64,000 nt of DNA, taken from the NCBI RefSeq assembly GCF_002999335.1, contig NW_020312700.1:124001-188000 (forward strand). Reading direction: 5' to 3'. The position numbers and the translations under genes are program-made. The DNA comes from Cyclospora cayetanensis (taxonomy: Eukaryota > Apicomplexa > Conoidasida > Eucoccidiorida > Eimeriidae). The notes under the pieces are model-generated. The model did not search any database, was not told the DNA's origin, and saw only the letters and a program-made list of their open reading frames with translations. Shown here one piece after another: positions 11,551-42,588 of the stretch. Numbering within the stretch: position 1 is the stretch's first letter; each line of letters starts with the position of its first letter.

Positions 11551-14025
11551 CTAAAGACACGAAACTGTCTGCTGTTTCAATTGAAGTTTTCGGTGCGGCT
11601 GCCGGGGATCTTGCTGCTGCCAGGAGAGCCGCGTGCACGCTCGGTGAAGTGTCTGCCGCAATTGTAGCAGTACCTCTTGAGCTGCGTCGGCCTGTTGCTG
11701 GTGCTGCTGTTGGGTGCAACGAGGCTCCCCTGCAGCAGCACAAATCCCAAACGCTGCGGCAGCTTGTTGCAGTGTCTCCTCGAGCAGTTGCAGCTGCTGC
11801 CGCCGCACCTGAGGGGCCGCATGCGCCATCTGCTGCAGCAGGGGGGCGCGCTGGAGCGCTTGCAGAAGCTGCAGCAACAAAGAGAGCTCCCCCGCTGCTG
11901 CGTCTGCTGTTTTAGTAGACGTGAAAGTGTGCTCTTCATGCTCGCCTTCAGTCAGTTCCCCATCTCCGCAGTGGCCTTCTGCGACTGCGGGTACTGCCGC
12001 GCAGTCCGCAGTGACACACAACAGCAGCACGAAAGCCTTAGGCTTTAGGCCTGCCACAACGCTAGGGGCAGCGCATGCGGTTGCCCAACGTATTCGGAGC
12101 TGCCGCAGTAGCCAGTGCTGCTTTTGTAGCTGCTGCTGCTGTCGTTCCAAGAGCAGCGGGGTAAGAGATCGAAGTGCCTGCAGGGAAGAGGCAAGGGAGT
12201 GCTGCGGGAGGCTGCAGGGTCCTTTCGCTAGCAGCTGATGTAGCAAACGGGCGCAAAGCAAAAGCCGCTGCTGCTGCACGGCTGCGCCGAAAGACGCGCA
12301 GTTTACTGTGGAGAAGTACCGCAGCGTCGTACAGAGCTGGTCCCCTCGCATGTCCCCGGCAGCGGCAGCGGCTGCTGCATGCGGTAGCAGAGCTCTTGCA
12401 ACTAATGCTGCTTCTGCAGCTGTCAAAAAGGCGGGGGGCTGTCCTGCTGCTGCTTCTGCTCCTGCAGTTGGAGAGGCTGCATCTTCAGGGGGAGTCCGAG
12501 AACCTTCATCGGAGTGCTTGCTCTCGTGTTCCCGCTGATATTGCTGCTGCAGGCGGAGGTATGATGAAACAAAGAAAGCAGTGTCAGAAACAGCCTGAGC
12601 ACGCAGGAAGGCGGGCTGGGGTCGCTTACAATTCTGCTGTAACGGGGTACTGACATCAGCGGGGGGTCCAGCATCAGCAGCAGCAAGCGCAGCAAACAGA
12701 ATCACCCTAGCAGCCGGAAGGTCTAAGTGTTCTACAGCCGCAAGGGCCTTGCCGGCTGCAGCAAATTGTTCGGCCCGGTGCAAGACTTCGCGCTGCTGCA
12801 TTTGTTCTTCCTCCAGTTTTTTTTGTTCCTGCTGCATGTGTTCTTCCTCCGGATTTTTTTGTTCCTGATGCATGTGTTCTTTCTCCAGTGTTTTTTGTTC
12901 CTGCTGCACTTGCTCTTCATCTGAATCCAGGATGAGCTGTGTCAAGCGATATGTGAGGTGGATGTACACCGCAGAAGTCCGATGACCCAGTGCAGCAAGG
13001 GACACGAGAATAGCGGAGACTTCTCGCAGCGTTGCAGCTGTTGCTTTCCACTGTACCTCTGTTGCCGTCCTGTCCACCAATTCGTTCGCTGCTGGCGCTG
13101 CAGCAGCAGCAACTCCGTTGCGGCGAGCCAGCAACAGAGCATGCAGCAGCACCGACAAATCGGCAGCCAGAAAGCTCCTCAAACAGCGAGCGCTAAAGCG
13201 GGTTACAGCAGCGGCAAAAAGTAACTCGATGAGCTGTAGCGTCGTCTTTTGCTGGAGTTGCAGCAAATCCTCTGAGTTTCCTGGTTGTTCCTGCTGACAC
13301 TCTCCGTCCCGCGGAGGCTTCTGCTGTTGGATTGGGTAAGCGTGGGCAGCAAGGAGAAGGCAGTGGGTTGCAGTGGCTGCTGTTAGTGCGGGCAAGAAAT
13401 AAATGGAATCTACCAGACAAGCTCGCAGCCGTCTACTTGATGCAGTCCTGCTGCTGCTCTCCAGGTGCATCTGACCCTGCAGCTGCTGCACTGCAGTCCG
13501 AAACTCCCTGAGCAATTTGGTACCGTAATGCATGCTCGGCAAGCTTTCCTGTTGAAGCTGCATTGGTTTCTCCTGTAGGACGTGCAGCAGCTTTTGCTGC
13601 GCTTCCGTCAGGGGGTGCTGCAGCAGCAACAGACGGGCGAGCCACTGTCGCTGCAACGACTCCCGTGATGCCTCCATGAGCTTTCCCTTCCACCTTACGT
13701 CCTCCCGGTCTAAACGGCCGCTATTGCTACCTTTGCAAGCAGCCACCTTTCTGCTGGATTCCCTTGCAAGGGCCCTACCCCGCGCAGCCCGCTGGTTACA
13801 GGGAGGGAAGAGGATACGACACGTTGTTGTTGCTCTCGTTGTTGTTGCGTTGGTTGTTGCTCTGGCTGCTTCTAGAAGGTCCCCTAGGCTGTCAGCCGGT
13901 CGGTCCGGGGGAATGGTCGTGGTGTTGCTGCTGGGGGCCTTCCTGCCCGAGCCACTGCAAGTACTACTCCAGAGCCTCCGTGCTGTACGTACAAAGTGGC
14001 TGCGCCACAAGGCCGGTGGCATCAT
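11551..14025 (-). CDS. Gln/Ala-rich helical-repeat protein, probably mitochondrial (HPR-like)
   Basis: A single uninterrupted exon of 824 codons. I chose the ATG pair at 14025-14020 because the peptide from there, MMPPALWRSHFVRTARRLW, has the Arg-rich, acid-free amphipathic look of a mitochondrial presequence; the open frame extends 55 codons further upstream without an obvious signal. The body is almost all alpha-helical, with Leu/Ala-rich repeats such as LREVSAILVSLAALGHRT and a similar unit in the C-terminal half. These resemble the heptatricopeptide or OPR-like RNA-binding repeats found in apicomplexan RAP-domain proteins, but no RAP domain is visible. A 36-bp tandem repeat encodes a Glu/Gln-rich spacer. 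If the family call is right, it would act in mitochondrial ribosome or transcript handling. The family call is tentative; that it is a real gene is fairly sure. Confidence 0.65.
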   Translation of the reverse strand: MMPPALWRSHFVRTARRLWSSTCSGSGRKAPSSNTTTIPPDRPADSLGDLLEAARATTNATTTRATTTCRILFPPCNQRAARGRALARESSRKVAACKGSNSGRLDREDVRWKGKLMEASRESLQRQWLARLLLLQHPLTEAQQKLLHVLQEKPMQLQQESLPSMHYGTKLLREFRTAVQQLQGQMHLESSSRTASSRRLRACLVDSIYFLPALTAATATHCLLLAAHAYPIQQQKPPRDGECQQEQPGNSEDLLQLQQKTTLQLIELLFAAAVTRFSARCLRSFLAADLSVLLHALLLARRNGVAAAAAPAANELVDRTATEVQWKATAATLREVSAILVSLAALGHRTSAVYIHLTYRLTQLILDSDEEQVQQEQKTLEKEHMHQEQKNPEEEHMQQEQKKLEEEQMQQREVLHRAEQFAAAGKALAAVEHLDLPAARVILFAALAAADAGPPADVSTPLQQNCKRPQPAFLRAQAVSDTAFFVSSYLRLQQQYQREHESKHSDEGSRTPPEDAASPTAGAEAAAGQPPAFLTAAEAALVARALLPHAAAAAAAGDMRGDQLCTTLRYFSTVNCASFGAAVQQQRLLLCARLLHQLLAKGPCSLPQHSLASSLQALRSLTPLLLERQQQQLQKQHWLLRQLRIRWATACAAPSVVAGLKPKAFVLLLCVTADCAAVPAVAEGHCGDGELTEGEHEEHTFTSTKTADAAAGELSLLLQLLQALQRAPLLQQMAHAAPQVRRQQLQLLEETLQQAAAAFGICAAAGEPRCTQQQHQQQADAAQEVLLQLRQTLHRACTRLSWQQQDPRQPHRKLQLKQQTVSCL
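12805..12912 (-). repeat. 36-bp in-frame tandem repeat
   Basis: Three full units (12805-12840, 12841-12876, 12877-12912) plus a partial one. On the minus strand each unit encodes a 12-residue Gln/Glu/Lys/His/Met-rich stretch of the type HMQQEQKKLEEE. Units differ by a few bases. The period is a multiple of three, so unit number can change without a frameshift. Confidence 0.9.
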
Positions 14026-14694
14026 GGCCGCTGCTGCCTTTATGTGGGCGGTCCACATGCATGCCTTATTCCCCCCCCGCCCTTGCCGCAGCTGCAGCAC
14101 CAACGGCAACCATTGCTGCTGTTGGATGCTGGTTGAAGCGCCAGTTCTCACAGCTGGAAGGAGCGCGTCCGTCGCAGCAGTCAAAAGCAATCAGACCATA
14201 ATGCTCGGCGCAGGAATTCCATAGAAGCCGCTTAATTTGGTGGTGCTCCGCCACGGGTGCCCTGGAGGGCCCCCATCGTGGGAGCCGTGGGCCCTTCAAG
14301 GGCCTCCGCTCGGCCTGAGTGAGGAGCACTGCGTGCAGAATGCAGCAGAAAGCTGTGATTTCTCCCACCTGCATGAATAATTTATGTTCTTAAATCCTAG
14401 ATGCGTAGTAGCACGTGTGTGTCGACGCGAGAGCAGCAGTCAGGGGGAGTTGCATGTGTGGTGAGCAGAGTAGTCTAGCATGCCTGTTACCCTTGCTGAA
14501 CCAAGCGCCTGCGCCTCTGGCGCCAGTTAGTGGTCCGTATATACATTTTTCCGTGGGGTTCCATACTTCGCACGTAAGGCAGCTGCTAGCATCGCTGGCA
14601 CAGCCAAGGCACGAGCAGCAGGGCAGCAAGCCTACACCGAGCAGCGACTCCAGCAACAAGAGAAGCCACAACGCAGTGTGGTGCTAGTGAAGAA

Positions 14695-35337: not shown

Positions 35338-38300
35338 CTACCCACTTGTTCTCCCTAAGGCGTCAGAGAGGACCTTACGAACGCCATCGGAGAGAGATCG
35401 ATCTTCGAGTAAGCGGGAGATTTGCTTCTGCATCAACAACTGTCTGCGTGCATCCATGTCACGCCATCCAAAGAACAGCTTCGCCCCGTTTAATGCTTGG
35501 AGGCTGTGCAACCGATCAAGCTGCACGCATACAGAGCAACCGCACAAAGCAACAGCAAACGGATGAAGCCGAGTAAAATGTTCCACCTAAGAAGAATTCC
35601 AACAAGGTACGCGGAACGGGGGCACGCGAAGGAACACACTTGGACCACTTTAAGATTCGGGCAAGGCAGACTACGAAAACCCATGCTTGCAACAAGAAGG
35701 AACAAACGTAAGACAGAGACATTCTAAGCGATTCCGTCTTAAACCGAGTGCAGTAATACACACCAAGACTGACAAGTGTAAACCTTTTCCCCTTTTCCTG
35801 CTTACTTCCACTATAGCATCTGCCAAGAGTTTGTAGCCCTCTCCATCTGTACGATGGAAGTGCACGTCATTCGTGTGCACGAAATCAAACAGAAGAGACC
35901 GGACATTGCTTGGGTTGGAGAAGGAGAACTCGCGGTGCTGCTGCAGCTGCCGCATTCTCTCCACTTGATCAGGCAGGTCGGCACTCGCCTGCACGCTGAA
36001 CCAACTGTTTACTAGGCGCTGGTTACCTAAGAGTAAAAATAAAGAGACCGACACAGGCTGTTGTACTGACGGAAAGCATCCTATGTACAACAATATCCCA
36101 CAGAAGGGAGGGTAAGAGTAGACAACAGAGGGGTATACACTACAAGAAGGAGAGGTTGCAGGTGCTGTGGGGGCTGGAAGTTTTCTGAGCAAACTAGTAA
36201 GCCAGCTTGTCAGAGAAAGATGACAAGTAAGATAGCTGGGCGCTGGTAGACGACTCTTCTACGATGGCTACACGCAAAATTGTATGAGTAACTATGTGGA
36301 GGTCGAGAACATGAAGAACAAACAGAAAAAATCTAGAGGGGCGAGAGAGCATGCTGCTCACCCTTGGCTTCCATATAAAAACGATCCAACGCCTTTTGTC
36401 TCAAAGGATGCTCCATGCCGGAGAGTGCTATAAGTGCGTGGTACTTGTCTGTCATGCACTGCGCATGAAAGAAGTATTTATAGGCCCTTTCTGCTGCCTC
36501 GCTATCTCTTGTCTCGGACAAATAGAACAACAAAGCGTTCTGCAGACGACGCCTGGACAGCTCCTCCCTGTCATGACAGTTAGCTCCAGGTGCAGAGGTA
36601 TACACCTCGTCAAAAAGAAAAACCAGTTCTTCCATCAAAGCAGCCCGGACTTCGCGGATAACGGAGCGACGGGCAAAATGCAGTGCATCGGGGTCCAAAG
36701 GGCGAAATTTCCTGGACAAATCCCTGACTTTGGGAACCATCAATGTGAGAGCCTGCAATCGCACAAAACAGAGGAATACGCCCTAATTGACAAATGCAGA
36801 AGGACGAATAGAACAATGCCCAAAATTCGTAGGTAAGTACAGATACACCGAATATACTTGCATTGGTAGAGATAAATCTACTACACAAAGTCAGAAGTAG
36901 ATGCCGTTGTCCGCGCGAATACACTTGCTATCAACATGGAATACAAGCAAGTATACACATCTTTTCACGTACATATTAGAACAACAGAGAGGTGCACGCA
37001 CACAAGCAAATATGTGTTCAAGAATGAACACAGATACGCATGCACATTCACCCTCCAAGGCCTTGTGAGCTATAGATGGGCAGTCGCATTTGTAGATTCT
37101 GTGCAGTTGCCGATGCTAAGCAAGGGTATTGCTCCAAGCCTACGCGTAGGACTTGCTCAAAAACATGCAAGCAAATGAGGACAGCCGCTCTTTGTTTGCT
37201 GTTTTCGAATGGACACCTTCATGTATTAAAGAAGACACAGGGGCAGGAAAGCGGCTCGCCTTTATGGAACCCGCAGTAGTTTCGTCTCGTAGAACGGTTC
37301 TCAGTGCTTCTATGAAATGTACGGGAAGAGGAGCGAAAACTGCATTGGGGTTTTGTCGGGCAAGAACCGCGCGTGATAGAATGAAGGACACGAAAAGAAC
37401 GTTTGCCGAGCGCCACTTGTTGACTGGATCGGTATCATAAGCAAGAAGAAAGGCTCTCTGCTCTTCCGACAGGGGTTCATAAAACTTCACGGGTGCAGCG
37501 AACTCGCGATGTACAGAGAGCACGCAGTCCTCCTCTACGTCCAACACCACCGTCGTCTTCTTTTCGCTCGTTAGTGCGAGAACCTGAAAATAATAGGAAG
37601 GCGAATGCAGGATATATTTCATGGATGTACCGCCCTAAATTCACCATAAGACAGTTCGGAATATACCAGAGCTCGAATCCAGCAATCGAGTCATGTGTGC
37701 TCAACAAAGAGGGTGCCGCATTGTGTACTTCCTTATCCACTGAGCTTGAAAGTAGATAAAACCACAAAGCAAGTGAGACACGGGTTCAAAAATAGCGGTC
37801 AAGAAGATAGCCTTGAGCCACATCTGACTTGGTGCATCTTGCCCACAGTCCAACTCGCCCTCCAAAGGAGGGAGAGACTCCATTCGCGCAGTAAGGCGGC
37901 CGGGTTAGCGGGGGCCTTGGAATTTAGAGCAGCGAAGACAGAGAGGCACTCAAAGGCGCACACAACAGATGAGCTTTGGTGCAAAAAAATACACGCGCAG
38001 CACTCGTTACCTATGCCGTACCATGGTGGGTGGGTCAAGGAGGTCCTTTTTGCTTATTTTACCGATGAGTCCAAACTTCATAGGTATCATCAGAGGAAGT
38101 TTGGTAGGCTGACTGCGGGTGGGGGGAGTATGCTGCGACAGGGTTAGTGTGAAGGTCTTGAAGTTTGGATTGTACGTCGCCTGCTCTACCCGCACCTCGG
38201 GTGTCCCCGCCTGAGCAAGCAGAAATATCCTCGAGACTCAAAATCCACGCATCTGGTTTCTTGCACCTCTTTCATCATGCGGTCTGGCAATTTCCAGCCT

Positions 38301-41300
38301 TCTCCCTGCCACCAACATGCCCAGCTCAGAGCAAATCAGAGATGAACAGGCACAAACCGAACTGCGATCCGGTAGCGCCTTCTGTCTTATGACGGTTGTT
38401 TTGTCTATCTACGGTCTCCCTGTCTCTCCTGTTTGCTTCTAACCTGAGAATACCAGCGGTTGAACTGCTTGAGGTCCAGACCGTTGGCGTCTTCCATGGC
38501 CTTTCGAAAGTCGTCTATCGTCACTGCCTCTCCGTCATGTCTCGCTAGATACAAAGAAAGACCGCGTCGAAACCCATCTTCCCCCAACAACGTTTGATAC
38601 CTGAACCCCGCAAACAACTCGAGAGGCTGCGTCAACCTCCTGGCTTCATTAAAATCCTGAGACTCTACCTGACCGGCGTTCTCTCTCTGATAACTTTGAA
38701 CCATCACTCTGGAGGCTTCTATGCCTGCCACTGTTCTCCTTCGTGTCCGATACTTTCTACACGCCGCCTAGCCAAACCTGCTCATCTCTATACAGGAGGA
38801 ACTGATAAGGGGATTTTCCCAGGTGCCTAGATAAGTTAATCCTTACGCGCGCATGACCTCGGCAGCCTTCCAGTGTAAGGCCGGGCTGTAGAGCTCGTAA
38901 ACGTCTCCATAGCTGTCGGGCCTCAGCGGCTTCGCCCTCGAACTTTGATCCAATCGAAAGATTTTCGAGAAAATGTAGCGCACACCGCTAACTCGACGGT
39001 CCCCTGGGGCAGCCATTGCTGCAGTGAAGAGAGATTCCCTTAACTTCGTCAAACCCTCGGTCAGGCTCAGCTGGAACCGGTCTCTGAAGAGACAATAGTA
39101 GACCATAAAGAAACGCGCTCATGCAAATACATTTGCACACGCCGAAGCCAGGCAATGCGAAAAATAATTTTGTCGCTGCGACCAACATATTGAACAAGGG
39201 CATACGCGTGGAGAGGATGACTGGAAGAGCAGGATAGCAGCCAGCGGAAAATCTAAAGAGGGACGAGATGTGCAGAAAGAGTTGAAGCGGAAATTTTAAG
39301 AGCCAAGACGCACCGCACTGCAACACGACTGCCTGCCCAGTTGCGGAAATATTCGTGTGCGACGGCGGACATGACTTTGTAGAGATCGGCGTCTGCGAAA
39401 AAAACAGCACCCCTTTCCCCCACTCTTCTCGGGCGCTTATTATCTGGCAAATAAAAGGCCAAGCGGGAAAACATACACGGTGGACTCCACCGCGTCCAAT
39501 CCCGAAGATACGGAAAAAGAAAAAGAGGTGCGGGGGGCACGAAGTAACAGAGAATGCAGATGCATTACACAACAAGACACGGCTACAACACCTGTAGGAT
39601 AGGGAAGCAAACACACCAAATTAATATGGAGCAACTGGAGGAATGAGCAAAACATGGAGAAGGAGTCAGCAACAAGGGGCAGAGAGCAGCAGGAGACCGT
39701 ACCAGTGTTCGTTTTGGGGTCCACAAGCAGAGCGTCGCAGTCGAAGATAAAGAGCCCTTTGTTTGCCATTTGGCCCCCAAAGTCCTCAACGCAAACAACG
39801 CTTAATAGATCCAAGTCATATTCAATGTTAAAATTTTCCTCGTCCCACCGCATACTCTTCTTTAGAGATTCAAGGGCCCAGTTCAACTTCCACACATCCG
39901 CCAGCTTGCTATAGAATTGGAGGGTTACCAGACGGCCTCCCTGAAAAGACACAGAACAGAAACGGCCACACCCAGTGAGAAGTAGCCGCTGCAGAGCAGC
40001 CACAGTCGGGGAACCGAATGTTTGAAGAAACACAGCCACGAAGTCATATTCAAGAAAGAGAGATATGACAAGCGGGCCCAGAGAAGGGGGCGGTGCGGGT
40101 TGGGGCGGAGGCAGACATCGATGGGAATTGCAAGAGCTAAAAAGCCCACAAGAAATAAACTGATATACCTTGAGCGGTCAAGGCGGCAGAGCCTTCAGAA
40201 CAAACTTGTACCCCACGAAAAGTGCTCCATTAAATCACGACTCAATGCATGCAATACTCAAGATGGCTTAAAGAAAGCTCGACAACCGGTCTCGAGAGTG
40301 TAGTGCCTCCACGGGTGCAGCTTTCGCAAAGGCTTCAAGGACATATTTGGACAAGTCTGCCCATCTGGCTTAAGTAATAACAAATTGACTGGAAACACGA
40401 TGAAGGCAGCAACAGCAGTGACTGGCCTGTGTCATAATTCCAGCCTTCAAAGCCCCAAAGTTCCCTGCAACAATTCCAAAGTAGTCGCAAGGCTTGGGAT
40501 GGGGATCGTCAAAGACCACGAAGTGCTTCCCAGGGGACCAGTCGATTGGGCCTTCCGCTACTTTATTTCCGTTGCTAAGAAGCACAGGGAACGTCTTCAT
40601 GTCTGCCTCAAGCTGCACCTGTACATACACCGGCAAACCAGCATCGATATGAAGCAATATCGTAGCAATATACAAAAGCTGCTGATCTACAAGAAAATTT
40701 CCCTCTGCAGTAGTATACGCATTCCTTCATTAGCTCCTGTGTCCTCAAAGGTCTACTCCTCTTCTCTTTCACCCGCTGCACTCTCCCCTCATGCGCCTTT
40801 ATGCTCTCTCCCACCTTCATAATCCCTCTCTGTGCAGCTCCCGCGCATGCCCCCCTCCCTCCGTCGTGCTCTTAGCTCTCTCAATATAGATACACAGATA
40901 CATACATATGCATGTCATCCCTCTACCTCCCTGAAGGCAGCTTCTCCATCCCTCTATTTCTCCCTGCCCATCATGCACGCGTACGTAGAATCTGGCTAGG
41001 ATGTCCGGTCTGTCCAAGAAAAAGGTGATCGCTCGAAATCCTTCAGGCTCGCACTGCGTAATGAGACTATGCTGTGAGATGAAGAGCCCCTTTCGCCACC
41101 GATTTTCCATCGGCTTCAGGGATACATCAATTAAGAGCTCGAACGGTGTATCTCCATCCCGTGGCAGGAGCTTCTGAGGGATTACCAACTGTCCTTCCTC
41201 CTGGCGAAGAGAAAAGCCATCAATTGGATCGGACAGCAACAACTTGCCGTTTAGAACCACCTGATCGAGTTCCAAGTCTTCCCCGTCCAACACGAGATCT

Positions 41301-42588
41301 TGGGGCGGTGCAGAAGGCGCACGGTGTAACACTAAGCGAGACAAGACCTGGCGAACCAAGACAGATAGGGATAGTGAGAAATTGAGACACTGCTGGAGTC
41401 CAGTGGGCCCGATACACAAATGCGTGCACAGGATGAGAAAGAGGCGGTCGGCTTTGCGGGAAACGATGCTTGGTTCAATGACAAACACAGACTACACGGG
41501 GTAGGCAGGCGATGAAGACGTGAATCTAGCTAGCTACACAAACTTCCGCCCAAGCTGTGTCCTTGTGCCTTCTACTTGAATGGCACCTTGCCATGTTTAC
41601 ACCCTCAGACACACATGGATTGAGGACTGTGCGTGCGTCGCTCCATGAAGAGAGCCCACCAAAATACACTCTCTGGTTCAATTGAAAAAGACGAAACCAG
41701 AAGCTGACTGTGCGGAGATAGGATACTTTTTGCATACTGGATGGGCGTACACCTCGTTGTCTCTATAATACTCGAGCTCACCTTGGTGTCGAAGAAATCA
41801 AGCTTTACGACTAGCTTCACAGAGTCCACCAGAAAGCTTGGGGGTGAGTAGCTCTCCCTAAAAACCTTAGAAGCATAGATATGATCCTCGTGGTGCTCGC
41901 GTAGTGGCAGCCCATTTCGCTCTTCCTCCCCTTCTTTCTCCTTCTGATCTAGAAGAATTTGGGGAGCTGACGCCTCGGCAAAGTCCAAATGTGGTAACTG
42001 CCACTGCAGAAGTTCTGCAGCTCGATCTACTGCTGCTGCATCCGTTGTGGGACTCTCCCGTCGCCACCTAGGGGGAGAAGAGGACAGCAGCTCCAGCAAC
42101 AGGGACCCCTGCCCCCCGTTTCCAAGTGCATCATGAGGAGAGCTAGGCGTACTTCGCGCAAGAACCACTGCAGAAAACCAAGCGCATCGAGCAAAAATAG
42201 TCCTGACGCTGACGCCCACCTGTGAACAGCACTGTTTTCAATGATCGGTCTGGATTGATCGGCAAATTTCACGGCCTCCCCAGCAGCAAATTGATGGGTG
42301 TCGAGGAAGAGGAGCACTGGGAAAGGAAGCCTCTCCACACGTGACGAAGGTGTACAGCAGACCCCCCTGAATGGGGCCTCATTCAACTCCCCCTCAACCC
42401 TGCCCCCCCATTAACAAGGTCTTCCTTTTCATTAGATGAATTTCGGGTGTTAGCAGCGTATGTGATGGGATGCTAAGGCGTCCTTTAGGCTCTAGCATAT
42501 CTGCCGTACCTGGGAAAAGGGGGCATGCCGAGCTCAGTAGTATGGGCAACAGTGCGATGCCGATAGCCGCACGGACGGCGATATTCAT
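35338..42588 (-). CDS. Secreted M1 aminopeptidase-family protein with lost catalytic residues (pseudoenzyme)
   Basis: The N-terminal exon from ATG 42588 encodes a signal peptide (MNIAVRAAIGIALLPILLSS), so the protein enters the secretory pathway. Exons that align with M1 alanyl aminopeptidases: to 41781, 41347-40985 (CEPEGFRAITFFLDRPDILA), 40618 onward (VVFDDPHPKPCDYFG), 39940-39703, 39392-39314, 39083-38847, 38600-38444 (LLGEDGFRRGL), 38210-38063, from 37583, 36752-36362, 36026-35806 and 35520-35338, ending VRKVLSDALGRTSG. Junction phases agree through almost all of this, and length fits the family. The active site does not: GAMEN reads GQMAN (Ala codon 39764-39766), HExxH reads HEYFR (Arg codon 39343-39345) and the catalytic Tyr is His (38873-38875). 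Only the first His, its Glu and the EGLT Glu remain. It is intact as a gene, so a non-catalytic role is likely. An extra exon near 40300-40380 and one near 37.85 kb are uncertain. Confidence 0.85.

Follow-up and report, generated by a model that had tools for sequence, protein, structure and literature searches.

Background

M1 pseudopeptidases are already known outside the coccidia (Tma108 of yeast and MNP-1 of Caenorhabditis elegans), and TAF2 is another M1-like inactive protein. By the title of a 2003 paper, Thompson et al. reportedly turned PSA into a catalytically inactive binding protein by an active-site mutation. Here we describe a gene for an M1 protein with an altered active site in Cyclospora cayetanensis, a human gut parasite of the family Eimeriidae. 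The gene lies in a stretch of 64,000 bp, referred to as the window, which is C359:124001-188000 (contig NW_020312700.1) of the C. cayetanensis assembly (43.2 Mb, 392 contigs). Its product is called the window protein, and coordinates are those of the window unless a contig is named.

Tma108 resembles the role proposed below for the window protein in that it is thought to bind and not to cleave, but it differs in being a nascent-chain binder at ribosomes; it is the M1 example in the tables of a pseudoenzyme review (PMC11266112). MNP-1 (M1-type matrix non-peptidase) is presumed inactive, three of its four essential zinc-binding residues being missing (PMC10368266). It differs in being an animal protein with roles in cell migration, and its comparison with the coccidian proteins is one of descriptions. 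In a Foldseek comparison the first match by E-value was PDB 6oiu, the Toxoplasma gondii aminopeptidase N TGME49_224350. This enzyme has the same four-domain fold and is identical to the window protein at 413 of 985 aligned residues; unlike the window protein, it keeps GAMEN, HExxHx18E and the Tyr.

Apicomplexan M1 aminopeptidases are under study as drug targets. Published reports describe, for T. gondii, three M1 genes that carry both signatures plus a short atypical fourth (PMC5939537), two aminopeptidase N genes in Eimeria tenella (PMC3770453), and a Babesia microti M1 listed with catalytic residues (PMC8621943). The word aminopeptidase is absent from the main texts of the rabbit Eimeria (PMC12659853) and C. 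cayetanensis (PMC4851813) genome papers, and a literature search, with subscription papers mostly outside it, found no description of an inactive coccidian M1.

Active site of the window protein

An initial annotation, made from the sequence alone, had placed an intact M1 gene at 35338..42588 with GAMEN changed to GQMAN, HExxH to HEYFR and the catalytic Tyr to His. The limits proved right (minus strand, ATG at 42588, stop ending at 35338), and alignment and coordinates confirmed all three replacements. In the refined splice model the gene is intact, with 13 exons, 1012 amino acids (aa) and a sole, terminal stop. The four M1/PepN-type domains all scored above cut-off (PF01433 122 bits, PF17900 36.9, PF11940 75.8, PF17432 254.2); PF17900 fell just under it in the E. 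stiedai and E. flavescens orthologues described below. The window protein belongs to the M1 peptidase family by descent, and the PepN/APN four-domain fold (N-terminal, catalytic, immunoglobulin-like (Ig-like) and C-terminal) was recovered by prediction.

GQMAN (aa 396-400) stands where active M1 has GAMEN, on a strand that is also one residue shorter (FG-GQMAN for FNxGAMEN). Within HEYFR (aa 432-436; HEYFR-x18-E) Arg436 replaces the second zinc His, and within ALHWKAAEV (aa 514-522; 38881-38855) His516 occupies the position of the transition-state Tyr. His432, the base Glu433 and the zinc Glu455 are retained, leaving two of the three zinc ligands. The labels E121 and Y381 follow the residue numbering of E. 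coli PepN. GAMEN, HExxH, the zinc Glu and the Tyr were all kept in each of the 26 non-degenerate rows chosen for the alignment. Thus GxMEN, HExxHx18E and the transition-state Tyr, the marks of an active M1, are all missing from the window protein; as in a pseudopeptidase, essential catalytic residues are gone from a fold that is predicted to be retained, and the protein has been maintained in Cyclospora and four Eimeria species.

The alteration extends beyond the motifs. Of 187 alignment columns in which no more than a single one of 31 non-degenerate rows deviates, 35 are changed in the window protein, against 2/186 for the canonical C. cayetanensis M1 on contig C35, 0/136 for that on C162, 0/187 for E. 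tenella and 3/187 for E. flavescens P0134, a contrast that is partly built in, as the columns were defined on a set of 31 rows to which these controls belong. By domain, 24 of 84 such columns are changed within the catalytic domain of the window protein, and 8 of 84 across the remaining three (Fisher p 0.003). From the sequence we infer that the peptidase activity of the window protein has been lost. Two C. cayetanensis database records match the gene, P0001 (named puromycin-sensitive aminopeptidase) and P0002; both carry aminopeptidase names, and as a description of a working enzyme this naming is probably wrong.

Orthologues and paralogues

Orthologues were found in four rabbit Eimeria species (E. 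stiedai P0003, E. flavescens P0004, E. intestinalis P0005 and E. magna P0006), and with the window protein they are monophyletic (support 100/100) on a long stem branch (0.68). The motif alignment across orthologues that had been suggested as a check showed the lesions to be common to this clade, hereafter the GQMAN clade. GQMAN and LHWKAAEV occur in 5/5 rows and HExFR in all four rows covering the site, the P0005 model being without that exon. The zinc Glu is replaced by Ala in 3/3 Eimeria rows covering the position. In QCExEGF, Gly takes the place of the second Glu in 3/3 covering Eimeria rows, a weak lesion because this Glu is also variable in canonical rows.

At least four M1 loci were found in the C. 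cayetanensis genome by a PF01433 search and with P0121 as query: C35, C162 with C168, the window gene, and a second gene on the window's contig, C359b. Two are canonical (C35 and C162), which supplies the catalytically intact paralogue that the initial annotation had proposed to look for, and two are degenerate (the window gene and C359b). C35 resembles the window gene in its short exon 1, its WRR and QLPH segments and its intron layout. The spliced alignment of C162, made with a shortened query, had no stops and no frameshifts; its N-terminus is missing at the contig end, and this gene may be split across contigs, with the missing part on C168:265-1023.

C359b (C359 ~259754-266030, plus strand) begins ~93 kb from the window gene and is a full-length M1 without frameshift, with 12 introns, all common to the window gene and in the same phases. 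Like the window protein it has a signal-like N-terminus and has lost catalytic elements, with GMTKN, HAYFH and Phe for Tyr at the active site and 39 of 187 nearly invariant columns altered. Unlike it, C359b has different lesions, keeps both zinc His and the zinc Glu, and has canonical Eimeria relatives. Together with Eimeria P0134, P0236, P0237 and P0238 it forms the sister clade (100/98) of the GQMAN clade, although its placement is less sure because of its long branch (1.34). The sister-clade Eimeria proteins have GAMEN in 4/4 and HExxH in 3/4 (the P0237 exon is mispredicted), with the zinc Glu and Tyr in 3/3 covering rows. By parsimony, these residues point to two independent losses of the active site, one in the GQMAN clade and one in C359b.

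E. flavescens P0004 (Efla_006349) and P0134 (Efla_006367) are both listed on a contig of 282,574 bp, and from this equal length the altered gene and its sister appear to be linked in Eimeria as in Cyclospora. In E. media, P0236 and P0237 (Emed_005017 and Emed_005018) are consecutively numbered sister-clade M1 genes; P0236 is canonical and the small HExxH exon of P0237 looks mispredicted.

At its modelled start the window protein is hydrophobic, with a mean of 2.68 over the 12 residues from residue 7. This was also seen in P0003, P0005 and C359b, not in P0004, and P0006 is truncated; C35 and C359b likewise have a short first exon followed by a phase-1 intron. The hydrophobic N-terminus, with exon 1 placed by hand, suggests that the window protein may be secreted. 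A spliced alignment of the window gene to P0003 left exon 1 unused and placed an artefactual intron within the variable N-terminal region, and was rejected.

Selection and remodelling

Divergence of proteins over matched columns was used as a stand-in for dN/dS. Between E. flavescens and E. intestinalis, identity was 550/724 for the GQMAN clade and 553/724 for the C35 type; between E. flavescens and E. magna it was 418/557, and 405/557 for the P0134 type. Between Eimeria species, divergence in the GQMAN clade thus does not outpace that of two active paralogue types. Between Cyclospora and E. flavescens the values were 539/873 for the GQMAN clade, 518/873 for the C35 type, whose pairing as orthologues has weak support in the tree, and, for C359b with P0134, 444/873.

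In 34 columns a residue rare elsewhere is fixed in the GQMAN clade, and 21 of these lie in the catalytic domain, which makes up 232 of the 910 columns examined. Two canonical control clades had 15 (11 catalytic) and 4 (0 catalytic) such columns, counts that are not directly comparable since the control stems are shorter. On this sequence evidence the GQMAN clade is, we conclude, remodelled and not decaying. The claim of the initial annotation that this is no decaying pseudogene is supported by an open frame, lesions shared by the orthologues, and matched divergence like that of two active paralogue types.

Interpretation and alternatives

We regard the window protein, with a probability of about 0.62, as an eimeriid M1 pseudopeptidase that is probably secreted and binds rather than cleaves. 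The sequences show that one copy of an M1 gene pair had already been stripped of the GAMEN Glu, a zinc His and the transition-state Tyr when Cyclospora and the sampled rabbit Eimeria split; it kept the four-domain fold and has been under purifying selection since, with the catalytic domain remodelled. The protein would enter the secretory pathway, where its closed M1 chamber could hold a peptide or protein partner uncut, most likely to sequester substrates or present them next to a secreted, active paralogue of the C35 type. A possible site would be the gamete or oocyst compartment, from which other M1 proteins of Eimeria have been reported. This secretory route is a reasonable first place to look, because E. 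tenella aminopeptidase N1 is listed with the transcripts upregulated in gametocytes (PMC4345034) and the wall-forming-body and oocyst-wall proteins of E. necatrix include two aminopeptidase N records (PMC10729351), all different genes from the window M1.

Tentatively, the former active site may even have been rebuilt as a new binding site, a possibility to which we give limited weight. The 21 catalytic-domain residues, including Arg436 (formerly the zinc His), Glu509 (formerly an Asn) and His516 (formerly the catalytic Tyr), would have been fixed before the Cyclospora/rabbit Eimeria split and then frozen, the chamber would recognise a different ligand in the secretory route, and the Cyclospora sister gene would be at the start of a second, independent conversion.

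Several observations weigh against a maintained, secreted binding protein. Proteins of the C162 type are better conserved (507/666 between Cyclospora and E. stiedai, where the GQMAN clade has 548/880, in unmatched columns), and the catalytic domain of the GQMAN clade is slightly less conserved than that of active types (129/156 vs 136/156, 71/84 vs 74/84 and 139/211 vs 146/211). The catalytic-domain bias of fixed changes is also present in the canonical sister clade (11/15). Among the 120 matches listed there was no orthologue from chicken Eimeria, Toxoplasma or Cystoisospora, but with ~8000 candidates scored their absence is not established. The N-termini of the gene models differ, P0001 and P0002 beginning otherwise than the window model, and the gene has two GC-AG introns, against 0 of 33 in three paralogues, whose introns were modelled with a script penalising GC donors. 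With His432, Glu433 and Glu455 kept in the Cyclospora protein, some metal binding is possible. With the GAMEN Glu gone, the protein is less likely to be a simple catcher of peptide N-termini, and a ligand other than a free peptide N-terminus would be favoured.

A regulatory partner, which would pair or compete with an active M1 paralogue and tune its activity without a free ligand of its own, seems to us rather unlikely. Canonical C35 and C162 are available in the same genome, and the likeness of C35 to the window gene in exon 1, WRR/QLPH segments and intron layout would fit; against this, PepN-type M1 enzymes are, to our knowledge, not generally obligate dimers. Regulating active cousins is a common pseudoenzyme role according to the review cited above (PMC11266112).

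Residual or altered catalysis, in which His432, Glu433 and Glu455 with His516 or Arg436 would bind metal and support slow or different hydrolysis, is doubtful. Two zinc ligands and the general base are kept in Cyclospora, and His432, Glu433 and Arg436 are found in 4/4 covering rows and His516 in 5/5; yet the zinc Glu is also lost in the three Eimeria orthologues covering the site, and in PSA the change of Tyr to Phe alone has a 1000-fold cost (PMC10343166).

It is very improbable that the gene is a relic, a pseudogene or nearly neutral gene whose catalytic residues drifted. The stem branch of 0.68, the two GC donors and the fast-evolving sister C359b (1.34) would be expected of one, but they are set against 13 exons in open frame, orthologues in four Eimeria species, matched divergence equal to that of active paralogues in two species pairs, and identical new residues fixed in all rows.

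An artefact, either a sequencing error or skipped exons that restore the motifs, is extremely improbable: the record P0002 comes from another contig, of 178,972 bp, yet is identical over 936 aa, in blocks spanning all motifs, which makes sequencing error unlikely, the Eimeria orthologues carry the same residues, and a scan of the gene strand from 43000 to 34900 found no GxMEN, no [TS]VYxKG and no second HEYF, its one HExxH (HEGVH at 37223) being outside an M1 context.

If the preferred reading of a non-cleaving M1 protein is true, two of the four M1 loci found in C. cayetanensis are probably non-peptidases, and annotation and target lists would have to be corrected. It would also provide a natural experiment, in which one lineage is inactive in all sampled species, a sister lineage is canonical in Eimeria and degenerate in Cyclospora, and the same genomes hold active relatives.

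Gene model

The exons of the refined model are listed in Table 1. Ten introns are GT-AG and two are GC-AG (at 40426 and 37259); the GC donors were adopted because the M1 exon lengths then match those of relatives. The 33 paralogue introns, all GT-AG, came from C35 (13), C359b (12) and C162 (8). P0001 also splices at the first GC intron. It has two extra stretches (residues 496-512 and 845-862) with a predicted local distance difference test (pLDDT) score <50 in the predicted fold, and P0002 lacks exon parts and has domains beyond the M1 part (PF13452, PF22622 and PF01575), which points to gene-model faults at this locus. An exon 13 start at 35586 was dropped for 35520, the extra residues being absent from relatives and P0001. 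The first homologue search was run with an older, 1034-aa version of the window protein.

Table 1. Exons of the M1 gene in the window
Feature	Position	Strand	Remarks
Exon 1	42510..42588	-	Start codon and hydrophobic, signal-peptide-like N-terminus (MNIAVRAAIGIALLPILLSSACPLFP); hand-placed
Exon 2	41782..42167	-	Linker, LLLxxLL...WRR and QLPH segments; N domain begins
Exon 3	40979..41347	-	N-terminal domain, QCEPEGF = aa 253-259; alternative end 40985
Exon 4	40427..40612	-	Followed by GC-AG intron (CAG|GCCAGT); alternative start 40618
Exon 5	39703..39940	-	GQMAN replaces GAMEN (39775-39761)
Exon 6	39314..39392	-	HEYFR replaces HExxH (39357-39343)
Exon 7	38847..39083	-	Zinc Glu455 retained (TEGLT, 39061-39047); His516 replaces catalytic Tyr (38875-38873)
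Exon 8	38444..38600	-	Catalytic domain ends
Exon 9	38022..38210	-	Ig-like domain
Exon 10	37260..37583	-	Followed by GC-AG intron (AAG|GCGAGC)
Exon 11	36362..36752	-	C-terminal helical domain
Exon 12	35806..36026	-	C-terminal helical domain
Exon 13	35338..35520	-	Includes stop codon

Elsewhere in the window, a stop-free stretch of 879 aa was observed at 11554-14190 on the minus strand.
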